From Bacillota bacterium (GTDB taxonomy: Bacteria > Bacillota > Clostridia > Oscillospirales > Acutalibacteraceae): a stretch of DNA of 37,838 nucleotides. Positions 5,677 through 37,317 of this stretch are shown here, piece after piece (within the stretch, counting starts at the first letter, position 1; every line of letters starts with the position of its first letter). The notes under the pieces were generated by a model that saw only the letters and a program-made list of their open reading frames with translations, was not told the DNA's origin and did not search any database. A program made the position numbers and the translations under genes. The stretch lies in the NCBI GenBank assembly GCA_029780875.1, contig JAKOXU010000096.1:1-37838 (forward strand), written 5' to 3'.

Positions 5677-7518
5677 ATGGTCAAATTTAAAAGCCTACTT
5701 GTGATTGCTCTCGTAATCGCAATGGCCGTGGTTTTAAGCAGTGGCATCTTTTCAAGTGCCGCCTTTGATCCGCAAGCTAACATTTGGCTGCCCCGCGGAA
5801 CACAACCTGCTTTCGGTGAACCCGGCGACACCATTAGGGTAGAGGTAAGAGCAACACAGGCGCTTCCAACAACCGGTTGGACTGCAACCCTTGAAAACGA
5901 TGTGAGATCTTGGAATGCTGAAGTTGTGTCGGTAACCACCGGCAGAGTCAGATGCAACACCGAGGACGGCTACATTTTCCAGGTCAAGGTTCCCGATGAC
6001 ATGCCCATCGAACTTTTCACCCTCGTTCTCAAGAACGGAGACAAAGTATTGGTCTCCGACCGCAGCGTCAGCGTTGTGGAAGACCTTGATGCCAGCTTCT
6101 ACATCATGCAAGTAACTGACGAGCACACAAACCTTGAGCAGGCAAACGCCAACGGCACCACTTCTTCCGGTAAATCCTCTTTTGATCAGAAACTGTGGGT
6201 AAGGCCCACCTTCAACCTCATCAACCCGCGTTTCATTGTCTACACCGGAGACAACACACAGACCTATCACAAAGCTAATAACTGGGTCGGCCTTGCAACC
6301 GCTGAAGTGATGCTCAACAAGTACAGGGAAACTCTCAACGGCTACACTGTTCCGACTGTAGTGTTGCCCGGTAACCACGACATTGGCTGGTCTGACTATG
6401 TCCAGATCAATGAACGCAAGAAGCAGTGGGAGAGCATTATCGGAGCCCGCACATACTCCTTCCGCATGGGCGCCTTCTATGTAAACTGCTGCGAATTTAC
6501 CCTGAACGATTTCTACAACTGGGCTGTTAGCGACTACAATCAGGCTTACAGCGATCCTACTGTTAAATACCGTCTCATGCTTTCCCACTATCTTGAAGGC
6601 TACAACAGCTGGGTAACGGTAGCAAAAGCCGACAAGCCCGCTGATCTCATGATCGTGGGTCACGGCCATCAGACAAAGCTTCACCTCAACGATATTTATC
6701 CCGTTCTCATGCTGGGCGCCAGCCAGGCAAACGGCTTTAGCGGATTCTACAACTTCCAGAAGAGTGGCGAAACTTGGGTTTACAACAGAGTAACCACCCG
6801 CCAAAACGATGTCGACTACTTCAACCTCTACAACGGCAACTATGGCGCCGTTCAGAGAGTCAGGGCCGAATATGAAAAGGCCAACGACGGCACACAGACC
6901 ACCAACTCTGTGGATATTACCAACGAAATCAGGCAGAACTTCTATGACGGCCGCGTACGCTTCATCATGGCAAGAGGCGTTTACGAAGTTACCGGCGGCG
7001 AAATCGTATCCCAGTACGATGCCGGCACCAACAAGACCGTTGTCGATGTCCGCGTAAACATTCAGGCGGCAACCGCTTCCGCTCCCTTCACTACAACCGT
7101 TGAAATCGAGAAGGTAGAGAATTCCGACAACACCTCTTATCCGTTGCCCCAGTACTATGCGGCTCCCATCGACGAAGAGACATCCGAAGATCCTTCCGAA
7201 GATCCTTCCGAAGATCCTTCTGAAGAGCCCTCCGAAGCTCCCTCCGAGGCTCCTTCCGAAGATCCCTCTGAGTCTCCCTCCGAAGCTCCCTCCGAGGCTC
7301 CTTCCGAAGATCCCGGCGAATCTTCAGCGGCTCCTTCTCAGGGCACCAGCGAAGATCCTTCCCAGGCTCCTTCCTCTGTTGCTTCCGGTGACGAATCCTC
7401 CAAGCCCGGCAATGTCAAGACCGGCGACGCCAACTACATCCTCATCGCTTTGTTCGCCCTCACTGCTGCGGCTGCTGTAATCTTCGTCATCAGGCCGAAG
7501 GTTTTCAACAGCAAATAA
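5677..7518 (+). CDS. secreted cell-wall-anchored metallophosphoesterase (calcineurin-like) with PSEx repeat stalk
   Basis: Signal peptide; metallophosphoesterase motifs DxH (VTDEHTN), YTGDN, LPGNHDIGW, MLSHY, VGHGHQT; acidic PSED/PSEA repeats; C-terminal NVKTGDANYILIALFALTAAAAVIFVIRPKVFNSK resembling a sortase sorting signal. Confidence 0.85.
   Translation: MVKFKSLLVIALVIAMAVVLSSGIFSSAAFDPQANIWLPRGTQPAFGEPGDTIRVEVRATQALPTTGWTATLENDVRSWNAEVVSVTTGRVRCNTEDGYIFQVKVPDDMPIELFTLVLKNGDKVLVSDRSVSVVEDLDASFYIMQVTDEHTNLEQANANGTTSSGKSSFDQKLWVRPTFNLINPRFIVYTGDNTQTYHKANNWVGLATAEVMLNKYRETLNGYTVPTVVLPGNHDIGWSDYVQINERKKQWESIIGARTYSFRMGAFYVNCCEFTLNDFYNWAVSDYNQAYSDPTVKYRLMLSHYLEGYNSWVTVAKADKPADLMIVGHGHQTKLHLNDIYPVLMLGASQANGFSGFYNFQKSGETWVYNRVTTRQNDVDYFNLYNGNYGAVQRVRAEYEKANDGTQTTNSVDITNEIRQNFYDGRVRFIMARGVYEVTGGEIVSQYDAGTNKTVVDVRVNIQAATASAPFTTTVEIEKVENSDNTSYPLPQYYAAPIDEETSEDPSEDPSEDPSEEPSEAPSEAPSEDPSESPSEAPSEAPSEDPGESSAAPSQGTSEDPSQAPSSVASGDESSKPGNVKTGDANYILIALFALTAAAAVIFVIRPKVFNSK
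7180..7323 (+). repeat. 12-bp tandem repeat array encoding about 12 tetrapeptides (PSED/PSEA/PSEE/PSES)
   Basis: TSED PSED PSED PSEE PSEA PSEA PSED PSES PSEA PSEA PSED PGES; the PSEA-PSEA-PSED block occurs twice. Confidence 0.9.
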
Positions 7519-15169: not shown

Positions 15170-15211
15170 GGCATGGGCTTACCCTACTTTTGGGAGCCCA
15201 TGCCCTTTTTT
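15170..15211. terminator. intrinsic terminator between beta-propeller gene and ykvI-like gene
   Basis: ggcatgggct...agcccatgcccttttttg between convergent genes. Confidence 0.8.
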
Positions 15212-16248
15212 GCCATTCTATATAAGTCTGCCAGTATCAAAGCAATCAGCCCCACACCCAAATACCCGAATAATCCATACAATCTGCCCACCAACTGCGC
15301 AAACCCCAGTTCCGCCACAAAAAGGGCCGCCACGCACATAAGAAGGCAAAAAAGCCACCTTTCTACCTTCAACGCACTGCATACTCTGCTTGCCAATGCA
15401 AACCCGCAGGAAACTGCCGTTGTAAGCATGGCAAAGACAAGGACGAGGGCATAGAAAAACTCAAAATAAGGCGAAAGCAGCGCCGCCGCCACCAGCATAG
15501 GCACTTCCCCCAACCCTTTGAGTTTGATGAGCACCAAAACCATAAAAACCGCCGTAACGCAAAGGAGCACCGGCCCCCCAACCCCGGCAAAAACCGCCCA
15601 CTTTTTACTTTTTACGCAATGCCCCAAAGCCGCCAGCACCGCCGCCCCCGTCAGTGTATTGTAGCTCACATAAATAACCGCCGACACAAAAAAGGTGTCT
15701 CCAAAGGGGCAAAATCCTCCAACCCAAACGGGCGCCGCGCCGAAAAAGGCGCAAAGACTTGCCACCAACATTCCAACCAGCATCAAAGGCGCGAGGATTG
15801 CGCTTGCCGCCGCAATACCCTTGAACCCAAAACAAAAAATTACAAAACACACCCCTAAAAAAACAAGGCAGGCGGCAACGGGCGGCACCTCAAATTTCTG
15901 CCTTCCCACAGCCCCTGCCCCGGCTACCATCACGCAAAAACAGGAAAACAAAAACAAAAGGCAGATAATATCTATCGCCGCCGCCACCTTGGAAGGGGCT
16001 ATAAGTTTTAAATATCCCCCGAAAGATTTCACTTTACTCTGATATACCCGCAGCAGCACAGACACCGAAGTCAAGGAAAAAAGCAACGCAGCCACAGCTA
16101 TCCCCGCCAGCCCCAAAAGGCCGTGCCGGGCAAAAAAAATCTCAATCTCTGCCCCCGAGGCAAACCCCGCTCCGATAACAGTCGCAGTATATATGCCGGT
16201 GATAATAAGGGCCCCTTTCAGCCCTTCAGCTTTCCCCTTTAAAAGCAA
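15184..16248 (-). CDS. YkvI-like multi-pass membrane protein (COG3949-type transporter-like)
   Basis: Starts GALIITGIYTATVIGAGFASGAEIEIFFARHGLLGL, characteristic of the YkvI family; about 10 hydrophobic segments. Confidence 0.8.
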   Translation of the reverse strand: MLLKGKAEGLKGALIITGIYTATVIGAGFASGAEIEIFFARHGLLGLAGIAVAALLFSLTSVSVLLRVYQSKVKSFGGYLKLIAPSKVAAAIDIICLLFLFSCFCVMVAGAGAVGRQKFEVPPVAACLVFLGVCFVIFCFGFKGIAAASAILAPLMLVGMLVASLCAFFGAAPVWVGGFCPFGDTFFVSAVIYVSYNTLTGAAVLAALGHCVKSKKWAVFAGVGGPVLLCVTAVFMVLVLIKLKGLGEVPMLVAAALLSPYFEFFYALVLVFAMLTTAVSCGFALASRVCSALKVERWLFCLLMCVAALFVAELGFAQLVGRLYGLFGYLGVGLIALILADLYRMAKKGMGSQK

Positions 16249-16253
16249 AAAAA

Positions 16254-16289
16254 CGCCCCCTTTTCATACCAATAATATGAAAAGGGGCG
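16254..16289 (-). terminator. intrinsic terminator after the yifB-like gene
   Basis: Minus strand cgccccttttcat-attattggt-atgaaaagggggcg followed by tttttttgctttt. Confidence 0.75.
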
Positions 16290-17867: not shown

Positions 17868-20486
17868 TCAATTTTTCACTTTGGAAAACGGCCGGGTCAA
17901 TAACAATAAGCACCTTCCCAAAACAGCGGGCAGCGCCGACAGCATAATCAGTCTTGCCCACACCCCTCCATTTGAGGGGATAACAACCTCAAAATACCCC
18001 TTTGCGGGTGCAAAAAACATCCCGCAAAACACCACGCCAAAAACCAAAAGGGCGGCGCCAATAAGATACGGGTTCACCGTTGAAGGCAACCGCCTAATAG
18101 CAACTGCCGACAAATTAATAGCAAGGATTACAAGGGCGAAAAAGAGAACAACAAAGGCAGCACTCGTCCCAAGTACGGCAGCGCTTTGTTCCTCCATCAT
18201 ATAAGTTAGCCCGCCCCCGTAAATATAGGCGCCAGCCACAGCGCCCCCCAACAGGAGCCCGTAAAGATAAGCACCCACCCTGCAAAAGGAAGGGAAAACC
18301 GGCTCCCCCCTGCCTTTAGGCGGCTCTTTGCCCACTTTATGCCGCACTTTCCGGAACCTCAAAGCCGTCCCCAAAATCATGCTCGCAAAGCCCGCAATCA
18401 GCAACTGCAGCGGACTCAAAAATCCCTGATTCCAAAAAATCATGGCCAATACATAGGCCGTCAGGACAGCAATATGTGTCGAAAGCTTGAATTGCGCTAC
18501 TCGTTTTATCCTGTCAAAAACTCCCCTGCTCTCAAAAATCGCCTCGGCAACAGACACAATTCTGTCGTCCTCCACCACGATGTCAGCCGCCGACCTTTCA
18601 ATATCGGAGCCTGCCCTGCCCAAAGCGCATCCAATATCAGCCCTCTGGAGGGCGGAAATATCCTGCGCCCCGTTGCTCGTCAGCAAAACCACTTCGCCCC
18701 TCTGCTGAAAAGCTCTTACAATGCGCAGTTTATCGGCAGGGGTAACCCTCGCGAAGACACTGTAATTGCTTATACTGTCAACCAGTTCTTCATCTGTCAT
18801 AATCGTCAGCTTCCTGCTCTCCAAAACCTGCCCGCCGTTTGATATCCCCACTTTCCTGGCTACTGCAGCGGCAGCGGCAGGGCTGTCCCCCGACAGCAGT
18901 ACAGTTTTAATCCCCGCCCTGCGCAGCTCACTGATAGCGCCGGTAGCCTCTCTGTCAAAACTGTCGGCAAAGCCCATCAGCCCGGCAAAGGTAAGCCCGT
19001 TTTCCACTTCAGACAATGCGGAATTTGTGGGAGCCTCATTCAGCTTTCTAAAGGCCACGGCAATGACCTGCAGCCCCTTTGAAGCCATCTCATTGAACTT
19101 ATCCTCAATGGCGGCATGGTCACATCTCTCACAGCGGGGCAGCACCTCTTCCACAGCCCCCTTGACAATGGCAATGGCCTCCCCGTCAACTATATTGATG
19201 GTAGCCGCCATCCTCCTTGCCCGATCAAAGGGTGCCGCAGTAACCCGGGGATAGGCCAAATCCGCCTCCTGCTTTGACACCCCAAAGGTCCGCGCCGCCC
19301 GGACAATAGCGCTGTCCACAGCGTCGCCCTCATCCGGGTCATCACAGCACAAAACGGCAAACCGAAAAAGCGCCGTCACCTTAACCAATTCCCTGTCTCC
19401 CAAGGCGTCGGGATTGGAACAGTCTATCGTTTCCCGCGCGAAAGAAACCGCCTTAAAGGTCTTATCCCTAACTTTAAGCAAAAGATTCCTATCCAAACAG
19501 AAAACTGTAGTCCCGCTCAAAACCTCTACCTGCGGCAGCCCCTTGCACACAACCCCTTTTCTTGCCACAGCGCCAAGGCTGCCGGAAAAAACAGAGCGGA
19601 GGGTAATTAGCATATCTTTCGGCACAGCAACCAAAGCCAAGGCAAATGACACAAGCAGCGCATCAAGAAATGGCATCCCCTTTATCAGCCCAACAAAAAA
19701 GACAAATACAGCACCGAAAAGGGCCATGGAACTTACAAACCTTGAAATCCTCGATAGGGACTTTATGGCAGCGTCAATCTTTTTCCCCTGCACTCCAAGG
19801 CTGGTGGCAACCCTGTTAATTTCGCAATTTGCACCGGTTTCCGTCACAATGGCCAGGGCATTCCCCGACACCACGGCGCACCTGCTGTAAACCATGTTAT
19901 AGCGCTGATTCAAATGGGAAATCGCCAAAATCTTTGCCCCGGCATCCTTATTTACGGTAAAATCCTCCCCCGTCAAAATTGACTCATCGCATCTGAAGGA
20001 GTTGCACCTAATAATCCGGGCATCGGCGGGAACCAAGTCCCCCGTCTCCAGCATTATAATATCTCCCGGCACCAACAGTTTTGAGCTGATATTTACAACC
20101 TTGCCATCCCGCAGCACCTTTGCGCTGCACTCAAAGCTTTTAAACCGGGAGAAAACAGCCCTGTTAGCAAATAATTTCAGTATAAGTCCAACCAGAAAAT
20201 CCACAAAGACAAGTATGACCATAAAAACGGCGACGGCGTAGCTTCCTTCTCCGTTAATTTTAATGAAAATAACGGAAACAACAGCCGCCAGTAAAAAGGC
20301 CAACCTCAAAATATTTCCCAATCTTTCAAGGGGATCCTTTAAAAGGGCCTTGCCGCGTGCAAAATCCAACTCATTTTTCCCGTAAGCTTCAAGGCGCCCG
20401 GCTGCCTCATTTTCCGTCAACCCGGTAGAGATGTTGGAACCAAGCTCCTTTATAACCATGTCCAGCGGGGCGCAGTGCCATATCAT
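17868..20486 (-). CDS. P-type (P2-like) cation-ATPase homologue with degenerate catalytic motifs, probable pseudoenzyme
   Basis: Full-length 872-aa ORF with P2-type layout (cation-ATPase N-terminal domain, A domain with GDLVPADARIIRCNSFRCDESILTGED, N domain with PFDRARRMA and VKGAVEEVLPRC, P domain, C-terminal TM bundle). DKTGTLT is read as DRNLLLK and TGDGxNDxPA as TSNGAQDISA. Confidence 0.92.
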   Translation of the reverse strand: MIWHCAPLDMVIKELGSNISTGLTENEAAGRLEAYGKNELDFARGKALLKDPLERLGNILRLAFLLAAVVSVIFIKINGEGSYAVAVFMVILVFVDFLVGLILKLFANRAVFSRFKSFECSAKVLRDGKVVNISSKLLVPGDIIMLETGDLVPADARIIRCNSFRCDESILTGEDFTVNKDAGAKILAISHLNQRYNMVYSRCAVVSGNALAIVTETGANCEINRVATSLGVQGKKIDAAIKSLSRISRFVSSMALFGAVFVFFVGLIKGMPFLDALLVSFALALVAVPKDMLITLRSVFSGSLGAVARKGVVCKGLPQVEVLSGTTVFCLDRNLLLKVRDKTFKAVSFARETIDCSNPDALGDRELVKVTALFRFAVLCCDDPDEGDAVDSAIVRAARTFGVSKQEADLAYPRVTAAPFDRARRMAATINIVDGEAIAIVKGAVEEVLPRCERCDHAAIEDKFNEMASKGLQVIAVAFRKLNEAPTNSALSEVENGLTFAGLMGFADSFDREATGAISELRRAGIKTVLLSGDSPAAAAAVARKVGISNGGQVLESRKLTIMTDEELVDSISNYSVFARVTPADKLRIVRAFQQRGEVVLLTSNGAQDISALQRADIGCALGRAGSDIERSAADIVVEDDRIVSVAEAIFESRGVFDRIKRVAQFKLSTHIAVLTAYVLAMIFWNQGFLSPLQLLIAGFASMILGTALRFRKVRHKVGKEPPKGRGEPVFPSFCRVGAYLYGLLLGGAVAGAYIYGGGLTYMMEEQSAAVLGTSAAFVVLFFALVILAINLSAVAIRRLPSTVNPYLIGAALLVFGVVFCGMFFAPAKGYFEVVIPSNGGVWARLIMLSALPAVLGRCLLLLTRPFSKVKN

Positions 20487-20580
20487 CAGCCTATCCCCTC
20501 CGTCAAATTCTTATATTATTTTAGAGCATTTTGTCGCAATTTGCAACACATATTGCCCCCAATAAAATCCCAAAAACAAA

Positions 20581-30554: not shown

Positions 30555-31190
30555 TCAATAATTAAATACCGCAAGCAGCCGCCCTTCTGTAAAGGACACC
30601 TCAACCTTTTCTCCGATAAACTCATTGCTCGCCCCAACGGGAAAGGAGCAGTCTATTTCAGCCCTGTCAAGCTCATACTTTGCGCCCCTGATATTCAGCC
30701 CCTTTACCGGCGCCAGATAGGCAAACAGGGAAAAATACTTCCCCTTTTCCCCCTCAAAGTAGTACCTGCCCGGCTTTAGCATCCTCACTTCACAGCTTTC
30801 ATCGGCTAAAACAGCATTGCCCCCCCTTTCGGCGGCATAGAGTAAAACCGATATATTGGCAAGGGTATGGTCAAGTCTTCCCCCCAACCCGCCAAATATG
30901 AAAATATCCAAAAAACCACGCCCCAGTGCCTGCTGCACTGCAAGGAGGGTGTCGGTCTCGTCCTTTTCCGCCGAAGTCGTAATACACTCCACATTTTCCG
31001 GCACCTCCCGGGTAAAGGAATCCATATCCCCCACAATCAAATCGGGCCGCACCCCTAAAGCCTCGGCGTGCTTTAACCCAGCGTCGGCGCAGATTATAAA
31101 GTCCCCCGGCCGCAGCCTCCTTTTAATATCCGAATAATCGGCAATATCGGCGGCGGCAAAAATCACGCACCTGCTCATCTTACCTCCCAC
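30555..31190 (-). CDS. thiN: thiamine diphosphokinase
   Basis: LRPGDFIICADAGLKHAEALGVRPDLIVGDMDSF, SAEKDETDTLLAVQQAL, GGLGGRLDHTLANISVL. Confidence 0.95.
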   Translation of the reverse strand: MGGKMSRCVIFAAADIADYSDIKRRLRPGDFIICADAGLKHAEALGVRPDLIVGDMDSFTREVPENVECITTSAEKDETDTLLAVQQALGRGFLDIFIFGGLGGRLDHTLANISVLLYAAERGGNAVLADESCEVRMLKPGRYYFEGEKGKYFSLFAYLAPVKGLNIRGAKYELDRAEIDCSFPVGASNEFIGEKVEVSFTEGRLLAVFNY

Positions 31191-32098
31191 TCCCTTACAT
31201 TCCTCACCTCATCATACATGTCAAGGTAGCTTTTATACCGCGCAGGGCTAATCTCTCCCCGTTCCACTGCGTCCTTTACCGCGCAGCCCTCATCTTCTGT
31301 ATGGGTACAGGAAGTAAACCTGCACCTGTTTATATACTCCGAAAATTCGCGAAAACAGCCTGGCAGCTCATGGCGCAGTATAACTATACCCTTTTCAAAA
31401 TCAATGGAGGAAAACCCCGGCGTGTCTGCAACGAACCCTCCCTCCTCGATGGGAAAGAGCTCAAGGTGCCGGGTAGTATGCCTCCCTCTCTGAAGTTTCC
31501 TGCTTATCTCCCCCGTGGGAAGGTTTAGATTTGCAAACAAGGCGTTGAGCAGGGTGGATTTTCCCACCCCGGAATTGCCCGCAAAGGCACTCACCTTGCC
31601 GAAAAGCTCCTTTTTCAACCTATCGAGCCCCTCCCCCGTCTTGGAGGAAACCTCAACAACGGTAAACCCCGCCTTTTCATAGACCTCGGCATACTCCCTG
31701 CCATCGCATAAATCAACCTTGCTTATAACAATGCAAGGCTCAATCCCCTTGTACTCGGCAATGGCGATGAGCCTGTCCAAATTATATAGGTTTGGCGCCG
31801 GGTCCTTTACCGAAAATACGATAAAAAGCCTGTCGATATTCGCGATAGGCGGCCGCACAAGCTCGTTTTTCCTGGACAGTATATTCCAAATCAGCGGTAC
31901 CCCTTGCCCGGAAAACCCGACACTGACTCGGTCTCCCACAAGGGGCACCTTCCCGTCCTTTCTGAAAAGGCCCCTTGCTTTGCATGTAAATAACTCACCG
32001 GCGGTCTTTACTGTATAAAGACCGCCGACGCCCTTTAAAATAATTCCTTCACAGTTTTCCACGAATCCACCCCTCCGCAGAAAAGAGCTGTTCCTCAA
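31175..32098 (-). CDS. rsgA: ribosome small subunit-dependent GTPase A
   Basis: Circularly permuted GTPase: VISKVDL, AGNSGVGKSTLLNALF, DTPGFSS, C-terminal Cys/His zinc region CRFTSCTHTEDEGCAVKDAVERGEI. Confidence 0.95.
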   Translation of the reverse strand: MRNSSFLRRGGFVENCEGIILKGVGGLYTVKTAGELFTCKARGLFRKDGKVPLVGDRVSVGFSGQGVPLIWNILSRKNELVRPPIANIDRLFIVFSVKDPAPNLYNLDRLIAIAEYKGIEPCIVISKVDLCDGREYAEVYEKAGFTVVEVSSKTGEGLDRLKKELFGKVSAFAGNSGVGKSTLLNALFANLNLPTGEISRKLQRGRHTTRHLELFPIEEGGFVADTPGFSSIDFEKGIVILRHELPGCFREFSEYINRCRFTSCTHTEDEGCAVKDAVERGEISPARYKSYLDMYDEVRNVREWEVR

Positions 32099-32103
32099 AT
32101 CCG

Positions 32104-34125
32104 TTACTCATCCTCTTCGGACGAGCTTGTTTCCTCGGAAGAAGTAGAAGAAGAAGGCTCCTCGCTGCTGGTAGAAGAGCTGGAACCCGAACCGGGATCC
32201 AAATCTATGTCATAGTACTGAATGGGATCCCAAGTCCCTGTGGTAAAGTCAATGGTAGTGATAGCGTAATCCTTGCCATTGAGTTTTACGCGAACAGCAT
32301 TATTGCTGCCCGTCCCCTCAAAGGTGTACTCATAGGTACCCCTGTCTGCAGGAATATCAATGCGCTCGGATTTGACGAGCTTACCCCTGAAATAAACCGT
32401 CAAGGTCACCGGGCTATACACCTTTGGCAAATCAAAGCTGATTGTTACATTGGGTCCGGCGGGAGGATTGCCGTTGCTAACCTTTAAATCCACCTTATCG
32501 CCCTTGTTGAGTTCGGTCCCCTCCGCAGGGATACATTCTTTTACTGTGCCCGCCGGGCTTGCATCGTTAATTTCGATGATATCACCTAAAGTCAGCCCGC
32601 TCTCCTCCAGCTTTCTCTTCGCCGATTCAAGATTGAGCCCCACAAGCAAAGGCACTTTAGTAGGCTCCAGAGCCGGCCCAAGGCTTACATAAATCTGAAT
32701 TTCCTGCCCCTCGAAAATCTCCTGGTCCTTTTCAGGCACCGTCTTTATGACACAATCCACAGGAGTTTCAGCATCATACGCCAAAATTTCCTTGACGACA
32801 AGGTACTCATTTTTCAAAATGTTGGTCGCCGTCACCTTATCAAGACCGTAAACATCCGGCACCTTCAGCTTTCTCTTGCCGAGGCTCACCTTTACATGGA
32901 ATGTGGCGTTCTCCTTAATTTGGAAATTCGGCTTAAAAGAAGGATTCATCTCAAATATTACGCCTTCCGGGTAATCCATGTTATACTCGGGGCTTTCCTC
33001 CACAATCCGGAGCTTGGGATACTGCTCCCTTACCTCCTGAACAGTCATTCCCACAAGGTTAGGCATAACAATGCTGGGAACCTTGTTGCTGTTGAGCCAG
33101 AAAAGGAAAAGCACAAAGCCGATGGCAAAGACCACAAAGGCAGCGGCCACTCCCGCGAGAACGGGAATGGTATTCCCCGACTTCTCATTGTCGTCCTCGT
33201 CCTTGCTGCCCTTGTCCTTGACCCTCTTTATTGCGTCCACATACTTTGTGGGAGCATCGTCGATAAAGTACTTGTATTCGAAGTGTATGCTGGGATTTCG
33301 CTTAAATTCCTCAATGTCCTTTAACATCTCGGCAGCAGACTGGTACCTCTTTTCGGGATCCTTCTGCATAGCCCTCATGATAATTTCCTCAAGCCCCTCG
33401 GGTATGGTGTCGTTTAGCTCCCTCGGGCGCTGGGGCTCGCTCTGCATCTGCATAATAGCGATGGACACGGCGCTGTCAGCGTCAAAGGGCAGAGTACCCG
33501 TCAGCATCTCATACATCATAACCCCAAGGGAATAAATATCGGCCTTTTCGTCGGTAACCTGATTCCTGGCCTGTTCCGGAGCAATATAGTGCACCGAACC
33601 GATAGCCTTTTCGCCCAAAGCTGTGCGATTTTCAACCCTTGAAAAGCGTGCAATGCCAAAATCGGTAACCTTAATAGTCCCATCCCGGAGCAGCATAATG
33701 TTCTGGGGTTTGATGTCCCTGTGAACAATGCCCTTATCGTGGGCATGCTGGAGGGCGCGGAGTATCTGCTGGGCAAAATGGACAGCTTCCTTCCAGCGTA
33801 TATCCCTCTGCTGCTCAATGTATTCCTTTAGTGTAATGCCGTCGATGTACTCCATGACGATATACTGAAGCCTGTCGCCAAGGCTCACATCATAAACCTT
33901 CACGATATTCGGATGGGACAAAACGGCAATGGCTTTGGACTCGTTTTTAAACCTGCGGCGGAACTCCTCATTTGTCAGATACTCATCCTTTAAAATCTTA
34001 ATGGCAACAATCCGGTCATCGATGCAGTCATAGGCTTTATAAACAACAGCCATTCCTCCCACACCGATAATCTCCTGTATTTCATACCTGCCATCAAGTT
34101 TCTTTCCCACAAATTTATCCATGTT
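32104..34125 (-). CDS. prkC: PASTA-domain Ser/Thr protein kinase (PrkC/Stk1 type)
   Basis: KLDGRYEIQEIIGVGGMAVVYKA, VHRDIKPQNIMLL, VTDFGIARF; TM helix; three PASTA-type repeats. Start likely at MDKFVGKKL (ATG ~34122-34125 region) rather than ORF start 34179. Confidence 0.93.
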   Translation of the reverse strand, partial: NMDKFVGKKLDGRYEIQEIIGVGGMAVVYKAYDCIDDRIVAIKILKDEYLTNEEFRRRFKNESKAIAVLSHPNIVKVYDVSLGDRLQYIVMEYIDGITLKEYIEQQRDIRWKEAVHFAQQILRALQHAHDKGIVHRDIKPQNIMLLRDGTIKVTDFGIARFSRVENRTALGEKAIGSVHYIAPEQARNQVTDEKADIYSLGVMMYEMLTGTLPFDADSAVSIAIMQMQSEPQRPRELNDTIPEGLEEIIMRAMQKDPEKRYQSAAEMLKDIEEFKRNPSIHFEYKYFIDDAPTKYVDAIKRVKDKGSKDEDDNEKSGNTIPVLAGVAAAFVVFAIGFVLFLFWLNSNKVPSIVMPNLVGMTVQEVREQYPKLRIVEESPEYNMDYPEGVIFEMNPSFKPNFQIKENATFHVKVSLGKRKLKVPDVYGLDKVTATNILKNEYLVVKEILAYDAETPVDCVIKTVPEKDQEIFEGQEIQIYVSLGPALEPTKVPLLVGLNLESAKRKLEESGLTLGDIIEINDASPAGTVKECIPAEGTELNKGDKVDLKVSNGNPPAGPNVTISFDLPKVYSPVTLTVYFRGKLVKSERIDIPADRGTYEYTFEGTGSNNAVRVKLNGKDYAITTIDFTTGTWDPIQYYDIDLDPGSGSSSSTSSEEPSSSTSSEETSSSEEDE

Positions 34126-34228
34126 ATGTTCAACCCCCTGTAATAATTGGATAGCCTCAAACAAAAATTTTAAGGCCACCGGGTTTGAAATATTTTAGTA
34201 TCTGCAATAAAAGATATCGCTTTTACAT

Positions 34229-34954
34229 CTATGATATCACTACAATAGTAATGTTATCGCCTCCACCGCAGTTATTGGCCGCCTCAATCAGCTTATCAGG
34301 CAGCGCCTCTATGCTGTGCCCGAGGTAGTACCTGTAAATCTGCTCATCATCTATGTAATTTGTAAGCCCGTCAGTACACATAAGGACTGCCTCATTTTCT
34401 CCCAGCTGCTGCTGGCAGTAATCGAAATCTATCTTTTTCTCAACGCCGATTGCCTTGGTAATAATATTCTTTTTGGGATGCTTTCTTGCCTCCTGTTCGG
34501 TAAGCTGCCCTGTTTCAAGGAGGTCCTGCACCACGGAATGGTCCCTTGTAAGCCTGAAAATGCCCTCTTTGTTGAGATAATAAGCCCTGCTGTCCCCCAC
34601 ATGGGCAATATGGGCAATCCTGTCGACAACAAGGGCTAATACGGCGGTAGTCCCCATGCCTTCCAGATTTTCGTCGTTTAAAGCCATATCGAAAATGCTC
34701 GAATTTGCCTCGCCAACCACCGACTGCAGCATCTCCTTGATGGCGGCTTCAGGCATTCCTTCCCTATAGTATTCCTTTATCTTCTTTCCCATTATATCAC
34801 AAACCATCAAGCTGGCAACATTTCCGCCTTTGGCGCCGCCCATCCCGTCGCAAACAACAGCAAAAGCCGCACCGCCCGGAAGCTCTCCGACAGTGAACGC
34901 GTCTTGGTTGGTAGCCCTTGCCCTGCCGATATCGGATCTACCCAATAGTCTCAT
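34229..34954 (-). CDS. prpC: PP2C-family protein phosphatase (Stp1/PrpC type)
   Basis: RATNQDAF, VVCDGMGGAKGGNVAS, HVGDSRAYYLN, LTRDHSVVQDLLETG, LMCTDGLTNYI, GGGDNITIVVI. Confidence 0.95.
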   Translation of the reverse strand: MRLLGRSDIGRARATNQDAFTVGELPGGAAFAVVCDGMGGAKGGNVASLMVCDIMGKKIKEYYREGMPEAAIKEMLQSVVGEANSSIFDMALNDENLEGMGTTAVLALVVDRIAHIAHVGDSRAYYLNKEGIFRLTRDHSVVQDLLETGQLTEQEARKHPKKNIITKAIGVEKKIDFDYCQQQLGENEAVLMCTDGLTNYIDDEQIYRYYLGHSIEALPDKLIEAANNCGGGDNITIVVIS

Positions 34955-36002
34955 GAAAGTTTACCTCCCCAAAATCCCTTCTACCGCGAAGCTGGCCGCA
35001 CGAAGCATTAATGTCAGCTCCCAAGGTCCGGCGGATTGTCACATTCAACCCGCCCTTTTCGAGGATTGACTTAAACCTGTCCATCCTCTCTTTAGAGCTT
35101 TTTTTATGGTCCTTTCCCGAAACAGCGTTTGCGGGGATCAAGTTAACATGGCAAAGCATGCCTTTCAAGATTCTCGAAAGCTGCAGGGCACATTCATCAC
35201 TGTCATTTATTTCGTCAATAAGGGCATATTCAAAGGAAATACGCCGTTTCGTCATGTCAATGTATGTCTTGCAAGCCTCGATTAGCTCACAGATACCCCA
35301 TTTTTTATTTACAGGCATCAATTTTGTCCTAACTTCATCAAAAGGCGCGTGCAGCGATACCGACAAAGTCAAGGGAAACTTAAATTTCGCAAGTTCATAA
35401 ATCTTATCCACAATCCCGCATGTAGACAGTGTCACATGGCGAAGGCTCAAATTTGCCCCCTCTTTATGAGACACAAGCTCCAAAAAACCAATGGTGTTGT
35501 CGAAATTGTCTAAAGGCTCCCCCATTCCCATGAGCACAATGTTGGAAACCCTGACACCCATGTCCTTTTCCGCAGCATAAATCTGGGAGAGCATTTCAGA
35601 AGCTGTCAGGTTCCGGGTAAACCCGCCCATTCCCGTAGCGCAAAATGAACAGCCCATTTTGCACCCGCCTTGGGTAGAAATGCACATAGAATACCCGTGC
35701 CTGTACTTCATCAAAACGGCCTCAACCAACTCACCGTCAAAAAGCTTTAATAGATATTTTACAGTATCATCTATGCAAGATACAAGCTTTTTTTCAATTT
35801 TTGCGCCAAAAATGCTAAAATCAGCCTGCAATTTTTCCCTAAAGCCTGCAGGCAAATCAGTCATTTCCGAAAAGGAGCCGGCCTTTTTCCTGTGCAGCCA
35901 GTGAAAAATCTGCACAGCCCTATACCCCGGCTCATTGTAGCCTGCCAAAATCTCCTTCAGTTCCTCGGGAGTTTTCGACAAAATATCCCTGTCTATAAAC
36001 AA
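34938..36002 (-). CDS. rlmN: 23S rRNA (adenine2503-C2)-methyltransferase
   Basis: STQGGCKMGCSFCATGMGGFTRNLTASEM (CxxxCxxC), NIVLMGMGEPLDNFDN, RRTLGADINASCGQLR. Confidence 0.97.
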   Translation of the reverse strand: MFIDRDILSKTPEELKEILAGYNEPGYRAVQIFHWLHRKKAGSFSEMTDLPAGFREKLQADFSIFGAKIEKKLVSCIDDTVKYLLKLFDGELVEAVLMKYRHGYSMCISTQGGCKMGCSFCATGMGGFTRNLTASEMLSQIYAAEKDMGVRVSNIVLMGMGEPLDNFDNTIGFLELVSHKEGANLSLRHVTLSTCGIVDKIYELAKFKFPLTLSVSLHAPFDEVRTKLMPVNKKWGICELIEACKTYIDMTKRRISFEYALIDEINDSDECALQLSRILKGMLCHVNLIPANAVSGKDHKKSSKERMDRFKSILEKGGLNVTIRRTLGADINASCGQLRGRRDFGEVNFHETIG

Positions 36003-36003
36003 T

Positions 36004-37317
36004 TCACCTCTTTTTAAACCCGGCGATATAAAACCCGTCGGTGCCGTGGATATGGGGCATCAGGGTAATCTCAAACCCGCCTCCGCTTTCCTTTACAAAG
36101 GGCGGCAGCGAAAGGATAAGGGGCTCAAAATCCACCCTCTCGTTGAGGAACCGCTCAACAACCCGACTGTTTTCCTTCGGGTTTAAGGTGCAAGTCGAGT
36201 AAAATAGCCTGCCGCCTTCCTTTACAAGCTCCGCCGACAGGGAAAGTATCTTATACTGCAGCTCGGGCAGCTCTGGATTTGGCTCCCTCTCCTTTATCTC
36301 GGGCTTTCTTCTTATAATTCCAAGGCCAGAGCAGGGCACATCGCACAGCACCGCATCGGCATGCTCCAAATTAACTTGAGGCTCCGCCGCATCCCTCAAG
36401 ACAGCTTTTACATTGTTGAGTCCTAACCGGGCAGCCCCCTTCTCAATAAGGGAAAGGCGGCTTTCCCTTACATCGCAGGCCACAACCTCCCCTTTGCCTT
36501 CCATCATCTCGGCCATGGTAAAGGCCTTGCCTCCGGGAGCGGCGCACACATCAATCACCCTCTCCCCCGGTTTTGGGCCCACGCAAAAGGCGCAAATTTG
36601 GGAGGATAAATCCTGTATGTGAAAAAGGCCCTCACTAAAAGCCTTGAGCTTTTCAACAGCCCCCGCGTTCCGAAGCCGCACCGCATCAATAAGCCCTTCC
36701 ACAGGCTCGGCGTCAACCCCTTCCGCGGCCAATTTTTCCACCAATTTCTCAAGGGTAATTTTAGTGGTATTCACCCTTGCCGTCAAAGGAGCCGGCCCAA
36801 CTAAAGCCTTGATTAGCCCCTTTGCCTTTTCCTCCCCGTAAGCTTTGGTCCACAAGTCCACCAGCCACCGGGGAGCCGAATACCCTCCGTAAACATCATC
36901 TTCCAAAATGCCTAATAGCTTCTCTCTGCCCTCTCTCTGCACAGCCCTCAGCACTGCGTTGACAAACCCGGCCGCCGCTCCCTGCCCGCTGGATTTTGCC
37001 AAGGTAACACACTCATTTACCGCGGCAAAGGAAGGCACCTTGTCCATAAATAACAGCTGATAGACTCCCATCCGCAGTATCTCCAACACCACAGGGGAAA
37101 TTTTCTTCAGGGGCACCTTTGAAAACCTTGCGATGACCTTATCCAAAGGCTGCTTCCTCTCCAGCACCCCGTAAAAAAGGGCGGCGGCAAAGGAGGCGTC
37201 CCTGCTGTCAAGCCCCGCTTTTTCAAGGGCATTGTCAAAAACTATATTGGAGTATCCCTTTTTCACATCCACCTTGACAAGGGCATCAAGGACAATTTTT
37301 CTTGTATTTTTCATCAA
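36004..37317 (-). CDS. rsmB: 16S rRNA (cytosine967-C5)-methyltransferase
   Basis: N-terminal NusB-like domain; VIDVCAAPGGKAFTMAEMM, VLCDVPCSGLGIIRRKPEIK, FYSTCTLNPKENSRVV. Confidence 0.96.
   Translation of the reverse strand: MMKNTRKIVLDALVKVDVKKGYSNIVFDNALEKAGLDSRDASFAAALFYGVLERKQPLDKVIARFSKVPLKKISPVVLEILRMGVYQLLFMDKVPSFAAVNECVTLAKSSGQGAAAGFVNAVLRAVQREGREKLLGILEDDVYGGYSAPRWLVDLWTKAYGEEKAKGLIKALVGPAPLTARVNTTKITLEKLVEKLAAEGVDAEPVEGLIDAVRLRNAGAVEKLKAFSEGLFHIQDLSSQICAFCVGPKPGERVIDVCAAPGGKAFTMAEMMEGKGEVVACDVRESRLSLIEKGAARLGLNNVKAVLRDAAEPQVNLEHADAVLCDVPCSGLGIIRRKPEIKEREPNPELPELQYKILSLSAELVKEGGRLFYSTCTLNPKENSRVVERFLNERVDFEPLILSLPPFVKESGGGFEITLMPHIHGTDGFYIAGFKKR

Follow-up and report, generated by a model that had tools for sequence, protein, structure and literature searches.

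P-type ATPases are textbook examples of an invariant catalytic machine. SERCA-type pumps no longer turn over once the Asp that is phosphorylated, the Lys next to it, or the Asp of the hinge is mutated. For an Asp to Asn change at the phosphorylation site, PMC13322241 states the same. Proteins that carry degenerate versions of these motifs are nevertheless described. Human TMEM94/ERMA is a maintained protein with a P-type fold in which DKTGT and GDGxND are degenerate (DKQGI and GSSANL, respectively), and its pump activity is disputed (PMC13322241, PMC12134183). The P4-ATPase domain of the apicomplexan guanylate cyclases (PfGCβ) likewise has degenerate signature motifs and is retained in a non-pump context (PMC6592433). 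In a limited search of the open literature, without subscription journals, pseudo-P-type ATPases of bacteria did not come up. The gene considered here, P0001, lies in a window of 37,838 nucleotides (the whole stretch of DNA that was analyzed) and encodes a full-length P2-type protein in which nearly all residues for ATP splitting and ion binding have been replaced.

Residue state and predicted fold of P0001

The P0001 frame runs uninterrupted for 872 codons from the ATG at 20486 on the minus strand and has the P2-type domain order, as the initial annotation had read it. Five Pfam P-ATPase families score above cut-off, E1-E2_ATPase (1.8e-36), Cation_ATPase_C, Cation_ATPase, Cation_ATPase_N, and Hydrolase, and the A, P (HAD), and N domains and transmembrane core are present in canonical order, which places the protein in the P-type superfamily. 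The superfamily model TIGR01494 matches with 156 bits (cut-off 62.3), and the scores with TIGR01522 (337.7 bits) and TIGR01116 (252.7 bits) are below the equivalog cut-offs of 798.3 and 703.4, respectively. The best match among solved structures is LMCA1, the Listeria Ca2+-ATPase (phmmer 1.4e-79).

The replaced motifs that had been listed from the sequence (CLDRNLLLK, the TSNGAQDISAL hinge, PKDM, DSFD, and AGFASM) and those given as kept (TGE, KGA, and PFDxxRRM) were all recovered by alignment (Table 1). The DKTGT motif reads DRNLL at residues 332–336, where the Asp (D332, codon 19491–19493) is retained but the other four residues are changed, and the hinge equivalent of GDGxND reads SNGAQD and has lost the Mg2+-ligand Asp, while the A domain keeps its TGE. 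None of the P2A ion ligands remains at the sites aligned, which are PKDM in M4, H671/V674 in M5, and G699/S702/M703 in M6. In SERCA numbering the substitutions are K352R, T353N, G354L, T355L, D703N, N706Q, R560Q, T625S, and E309K, with the ion-site residues N768, E771, N796, T799 (to Ser), and D800 also lost, and the residues retained are D351, D627, K684, D707, E183, F487, K515, and D601. The retained catalytic residues thus include D332, D534 of the TGD motif (here SGDS), K586 (SERCA K684), and the last hinge Asp, D609 (SERCA D707). The initial annotation took the near-invariance of DKTGT and GDGxND from established knowledge; in the present alignment DKTGT, TGD, GDGxND, TGE, and the M4 PE were found in 61 of 61 other P2 proteins from the same order, a set chosen as motif-keeping.

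Table 1. Position and basis of the features described at the P0001 locus (window coordinates).
Feature	Position	Strand	Basis
P0001, candidate pseudo-P2A-ATPase gene, 872 aa	17868..20486	(-)	uninterrupted frame; matches to five Pfam P-ATPase families; AlphaFold model
Degenerate phosphorylation loop CLDRNLLLK, residues 330-338 (canonical CSDKTGTLT)	19473..19499	(-)	alignment
Degenerate hinge TSNGAQDISAL, residues 603-613 (canonical TGDGVNDAPAL)	18648..18680	(-)	alignment
LLSGDS, residues 530-535 (canonical MITGDH), Asp kept	18882..18899	(-)	alignment
DSFD, residues 508-511 (canonical DPPR)	18954..18965	(-)	alignment
M4 PKDM, residues 289-292 (canonical PEGL), ligand Glu to Lys	19611..19622	(-)	alignment
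M5 FKLSTHIAV, residues 666-674, Asn768 and Glu771 equivalents lost	18465..18491	(-)	alignment
M6 AGFASM, residues 698-703, Asn796/Thr799/Asp800 equivalents lost	18378..18395	(-)	alignment
A-domain TGED, residues 172-175, TGE kept	19962..19973	(-)	alignment
N-domain KGA, residues 442-444, kept	19155..19163	(-)	alignment
N-domain PFDRARRMA, residues 419-427, retaining Phe and Arg	19206..19232	(-)	alignment
Terminator-like hairpin GCCCCTTCGCC-TGAAAAA-GGCAAGGGGC plus TTTGTTTTT, between upstream DUF2344 gene and P0001	20571..20608	(-)	direct sequence reading; absent from scan list
Promoter-like TTGCAA-17-TAAAAT before P0001	20518..20546	(-)	consensus match only
Shine-Dalgarno-like GGAGGGG before ATG 20486	20495..20501	(-)	sequence reading
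yifB/comM (TIGR00368), downstream of P0001	16314..17843	(-)	24 nt from P0001 stop to yifB ATG
Strong terminator-like hairpin after yifB	16257..16287	(-)	sequence scan

Of 137 near-invariant sites, defined from 87 canonical rows, P0001 retains 72, and the loss is uneven, with 16 of 19 sites kept in the A domain, 6 of 16 in the P-loop, 4 of 13 in M3–M4, and 6 of 18 in M5–M10. With that many sites kept and the losses so uneven, chance does not come into question.

An AlphaFold2 model of P0001 (pLDDT 76.7, pTM 0.71) was built from an input alignment of eight canonical homologues, and its fold may therefore lean toward the canonical one. It contains ten transmembrane helices, of which M4 is interrupted at Pro289, and the A, N, and P domains are complete, in agreement with the intact A/N/P fold that had been anticipated. 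Foldseek aligned the model over nearly its full length with SERCA and Na,K-ATPase in their E1 states (TM up to 0.87), and the modeled protein adopts an E1-like state. Within the predicted membrane core, mid-M5 and mid-M6 have no acidic residues, and M4 carries a Lys-Asp pair (K290/D291).

Gene setting and degenerate relatives

P0001 and yifB, which lies directly downstream, have the arrangement of a two-gene operon with P0001 first, as judged from the spacing and the flanking promoter-like and terminator-like signals. The codon adaptation of P0001 is 0.748, within the range of its neighbors (0.71–0.78), and its GC3 is also neighbor-like. An assembly artefact was discarded as an explanation, since the substitutions are spread along a single open frame whose codon usage is normal, and the contig also carries genes related to spores and ribosomes. 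The host genome is an 84%-complete assembly of 1.29 Mb in 130 contigs, and the host is likely a spore-former, since spoIVA and genes with SipL domains occur in the window. Near these two genes, an rsmB-rlmN-(prpC)-prkC-rsgA cluster occupies 31175–37317 of the window; in Bacillus subtilis the corresponding cluster lies near yloB, which encodes a sporulation-linked P-type Ca2+-ATPase. Two further genes in the window encode, downstream of yifB (15184–16248, minus strand), a 354-aa hydrophobic protein with GAGFASGAEI near its start and no Pfam or NCBIfam match, and at 5677–7518 (plus strand) a 613-aa protein with a marginal metallophosphoesterase match and no other.

The same genome encodes a canonical P2A paralogue (G000:C92, 13937–16525) with DKTGT, GDGVND, and PEGL, and P0001 consequently need not provide pump function. 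Two more P-type ATPases, probably of the heavy-metal type, are encoded close together on opposite strands at G000:C54:14818-19240.

Searches of 398 genomes from the family, 199 from the order, and genome_contigs yielded no close orthologue of P0001, nor any orthologue sharing the exact DRNLLLK/TSNGAQD losses, so that the clade with shared losses looked for on the basis of the initial annotation did not appear. The best matches anywhere were canonical pumps (34%), and the protein of G117, itself degenerate, shares 28% identity. A survey did uncover other degenerate P2 pumps, 18 among 107 examined with P0001 included, a ratio that is not a frequency because later survey batches were partly chosen for weak or partial matches. 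All 18 come from the family of P0001 and represent 13 genera; an order-wide sample of about 45 pumps from outside the family, with L207 left out as a misassigned frame, held none, save one conservative change.

The other degenerate pumps have intact frames and have lost GDGxND together with various TGE, PEGL, DPPR, and M5/M6 residues. GDGxND is altered in all 18 proteins, most commonly through Ser in place of Gly704 or an acidic residue in place of Asn706, and Asp351 is retained in 16. DKTGT is retained by all except P0001, G117/G234, G116, G049/G167, G179, and G065, and only P0001 changes the Lys, Thr, and Gly of this motif. P0001 is the most degenerate member of the survey set. G117 and G234 have CTNKTGSFTQN, in which the phosphorylated Asp is Asn, TGEGAED at the hinge, and TGD for TGE, and their M5/M6 ligands are absent.

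Five of the 18 degenerate genes are directly before yifB: P0001, those of G117 and G234 (genus g118), that of G108 (g109), and that of G037 (g38). A canonical P2A pump holds the same position in genera g28 and g59 (G027, G152, G319, G410, and G058), and the pump-yifB spacing at these loci is about 4–90 nt, G058 excepted. The YifB-linked Asp to Asn homologues come from two species (G117:C27, L073:9061-11640, minus strand; G234:C40, L087:5412-7991, plus strand). Other degenerate P2A loci of the family are L118, L123, L119, L130, L131, L136, L132, L133, L137, L139, L143, L144, L145, L158, and L161; one subgroup (G182, G069, G116, G093, G004, and G125) adjoins prfB-prmA in divergent orientation, and another (G181 and G068) follows a DAK/FakA-like gene. 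A conserved partner gene beyond yifB was sought and discounted, as only housekeeping neighbors recur (prfB-prmA, an FAD dehydrogenase, and galactokinase) and these differ by subgroup. Three degenerate-bearing genomes (G196, G004, and G065, 94–99% complete) have the degenerate protein as their only P2-type match at E≤1e-50, which makes a universal role in regulating a canonical paralogue unlikely.

Selection, descent, and alternative explanations

The degenerate pair G117/G234 (87% identical) gave a dN/dS of 0.105 (NG86) and 0.081 (YN00), compared with 0.100 and 0.076 for the adjoining yifB pair. The G049/G167 pair gave 0.065, and G182/G069 gave about 0.065 with saturated dS and is supportive only; pairs of canonical pumps ranged from 0.03 to 0.10. 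For the G117/G234 pair, dN/dS is lower in the A and P/N regions (0.06–0.07) than in the membrane parts (0.13–0.17). These values, similar to those of canonical pumps and yifB, reveal that the degenerate pumps are maintained, not decaying, and about as constrained as working ones, directly for the relatives and indirectly for P0001. Simulated neutral decay produced at least six stops at 65% identity and at least ten at 50% (30 simulations each), where P0001 has none. By its intact frame, normal codon usage, and this simulation, with dN/dS taken from degenerate relatives only, P0001 does not look like a pseudogene, and we infer selection on P0001 itself from the intact frame and these relatives. 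The view that cycling is probably lost with the fold maintained, and that the gene was repurposed and is not in recent decay, is supported by the same evidence and by the predicted fold. A standard DKTGT in a sister gene, which had been named as a sign of isolated recent decay, does occur in the canonical pumps at yifB in g28 and g59, but the degenerate genes at this position in g118, g109, and g38, those of g118 being maintained between species, argue against isolated recent decay.

In a quick tree of the 107 rows the 18 degenerate proteins group together, weakly (SH-aLRT 73), and long-branch attraction is likely in this grouping. When degenerate proteins were placed singly, G117 (100) and G037 (98) joined the canonical pumps linked to YifB, while G116, G179, G181, and G049 joined another canonical group; the single placements of P0001 and G108 are unreliable. 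The end branch of P0001, about 3.4–5.9 substitutions per site, is among the longest of all rows. A constraint that grouped the degenerate proteins at yifB with the canonical ones there gave a likelihood slightly better than the free search. In AU tests, P0001 with the canonical group had a p of 0.295 and a single origin of the six better-placed degenerates a p of 0.185; over the range of 0.19–0.65, obtained with sets smaller than 107 rows, a common origin was neither rejected nor shown. A single ancient degenerate clade was thus not adopted as settled history, since the single placements scatter and the AU test rejects neither view. Several independent conversions of canonical pumps are likely, and because of the synteny the simplest reading is that a canonical pump was converted in place at the yifB locus. 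A viral origin of P0001 was rejected, as viral_contigs yielded only ordinary canonical pumps (25–32%).

Three other accounts of P0001 were weighed. The long end branch, the canonical pumps at the same locus in other genera, and the failure to find an orthologue with its exact losses among the genomes searched would each suit a gene in slow decay, a pseudogene in the making that is free of stops by luck. We regard this as highly improbable, given that neutral decay predicts at least ten stops where P0001 has neither stop nor frameshift, that its codon usage is normal, and that the structural glycines are retained along with most of the invariant A-domain sites. The ribosome-binding site, the promoter-like site of its own, and the operon-like arrangement with yifB also speak against decay, as does the dN/dS of 0.065–0.10 in the degenerate relatives.

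An active but unconventional transporter, in which D332 is phosphorylated or ATP drives another cycle and the altered M4–M6 core carries another substrate, would explain why D332, the SGD Asp, K586, D609, and TGE are all kept, and one group has reported Asp-dependent Mg2+ uptake for ERMA, with its DKQGI, GSSANL, and absent TGES (PMC13322241). However, another group did not find ATPase activity in TMEM94 (PMC12134183), and the equivalents of K352, T353, G354, T355, D703, and N706 are all altered together in P0001, where no acidic M5/M6 ligand remains and the M4 Glu is Lys. Moreover, the YifB-linked G117/G234 proteins have Asn for Asp and yet are under strong purifying selection, and a transporter of this kind is accordingly judged unlikely. 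The loss of the ion ligands from a core that still has its ten hydrophobic helices and its broken M4 could instead point to a repurposed passive or lipid-related membrane protein, its K290/D291 core being a channel, lipid-binding, or scrambling site gated by the headpiece; a phosphatidic-acid-shaped lipid is bound in the membrane domain of TMEM94 (PMC12134183). A lipid site in P0001 would be hypothetical, and the membrane parts of G117/G234 evolve faster than their A and P/N regions, so that the headpiece looks to be what is selected, which leaves the passive role distinctly unlikely.

Collectively, these data make it probable that P0001 is a P2A-derived pseudo-P-type ATPase that has lost phosphoenzyme cycling and its ion sites and is maintained as a ten-transmembrane A/P/N fold. 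The protein is very probably unable to complete an E1P/E2P cycle, because the Lys-Thr-Gly-Thr of its P-loop and the Mg2+-ligand Asp of its hinge are replaced and the M4–M6 carboxylate ligands are gone. Its ancestor would have been a P2A (Ca2+-ATPase-like) pump, most simply one located directly before yifB, as still found elsewhere; cycling and the transmembrane ion sites would then have been lost while the folded membrane protein was retained. Since it retains D332, D534, K586, and D609, some crippled or unconventional phosphorylation chemistry is possible.

Preservation in P0001 is best in the A domain, and in the N domain the ATP-site Phe and Lys are kept and the Arg560 equivalent is Gln, a change through which ATP binding may be weakened. 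P0001 is best read as a non-pumping, probably nucleotide-binding protein, perhaps a conformational sensor or scaffold. We suggest, tentatively, that the selected feature is a cytosolic headpiece responsive to conformation or nucleotide; on this view the protein would rest in an E1-like conformation and bind nucleotide but not turn it over, serving some partner protein as sensor or scaffold. The yifB product is a plausible candidate partner; yifB, the sole conserved neighbor, itself gives no clear functional hint. A broader proposition, that one bacterial family has repeatedly made P2A pumps into strongly conserved dead pseudo-pumps, tightly yifB-linked in several genera, and that these sense nucleotides or ions as regulators or act as scaffolds, a bacterial class of P-type pseudoenzymes, is doubtful.

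Comparison with known P-type proteins

As far as sequence can tell, P0001 is a P-type superfamily member in fold and ancestry but not a P-type ATPase in mechanism, which bears on the practice of labeling all such proteins cation-transporting ATPases. It shares domain order and fold with the bacterial P2A Ca2+-ATPases (LMCA1 of Listeria, PDB codes 6zhf and 9evc; the PMR1/SPCA type of TIGR01522), canonical members of which stand at this yifB locus in some other genera, but has the catalytic loop, hinge, M4–M6 ion residues, and DPPR replaced. Among the degenerate P2A proteins of its family (G117, G234, G037, G108, G116, G049, G179, and others), four are YifB-linked, as is P0001. Together these proteins form a graded natural series, sometimes at one locus, from canonical pumps through hinge-only losses to the near-complete loss in P0001, with which one can test what parts of the pump serve a purpose other than pumping.

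The known parallels of P0001, TMEM94/ERMA and the PfGCβ module, are eukaryotic. The latter is of the P4 type and fused to guanylate cyclase, whereas P0001 is a stand-alone P2A-like protein. TMEM94/ERMA is an endoplasmic reticulum protein that lacks TGES, keeps the Lys of DK, and has a GMN motif and an occluded N domain; P0001, in contrast, has DRNLL and TGE, and the likeness is drawn from published features with no close sequence relation claimed. By this analogy P0001 is perhaps a bacterial counterpart of TMEM94/ERMA, and the series to which it belongs is relevant to the disputed question of active pumping by TMEM94/ERMA.
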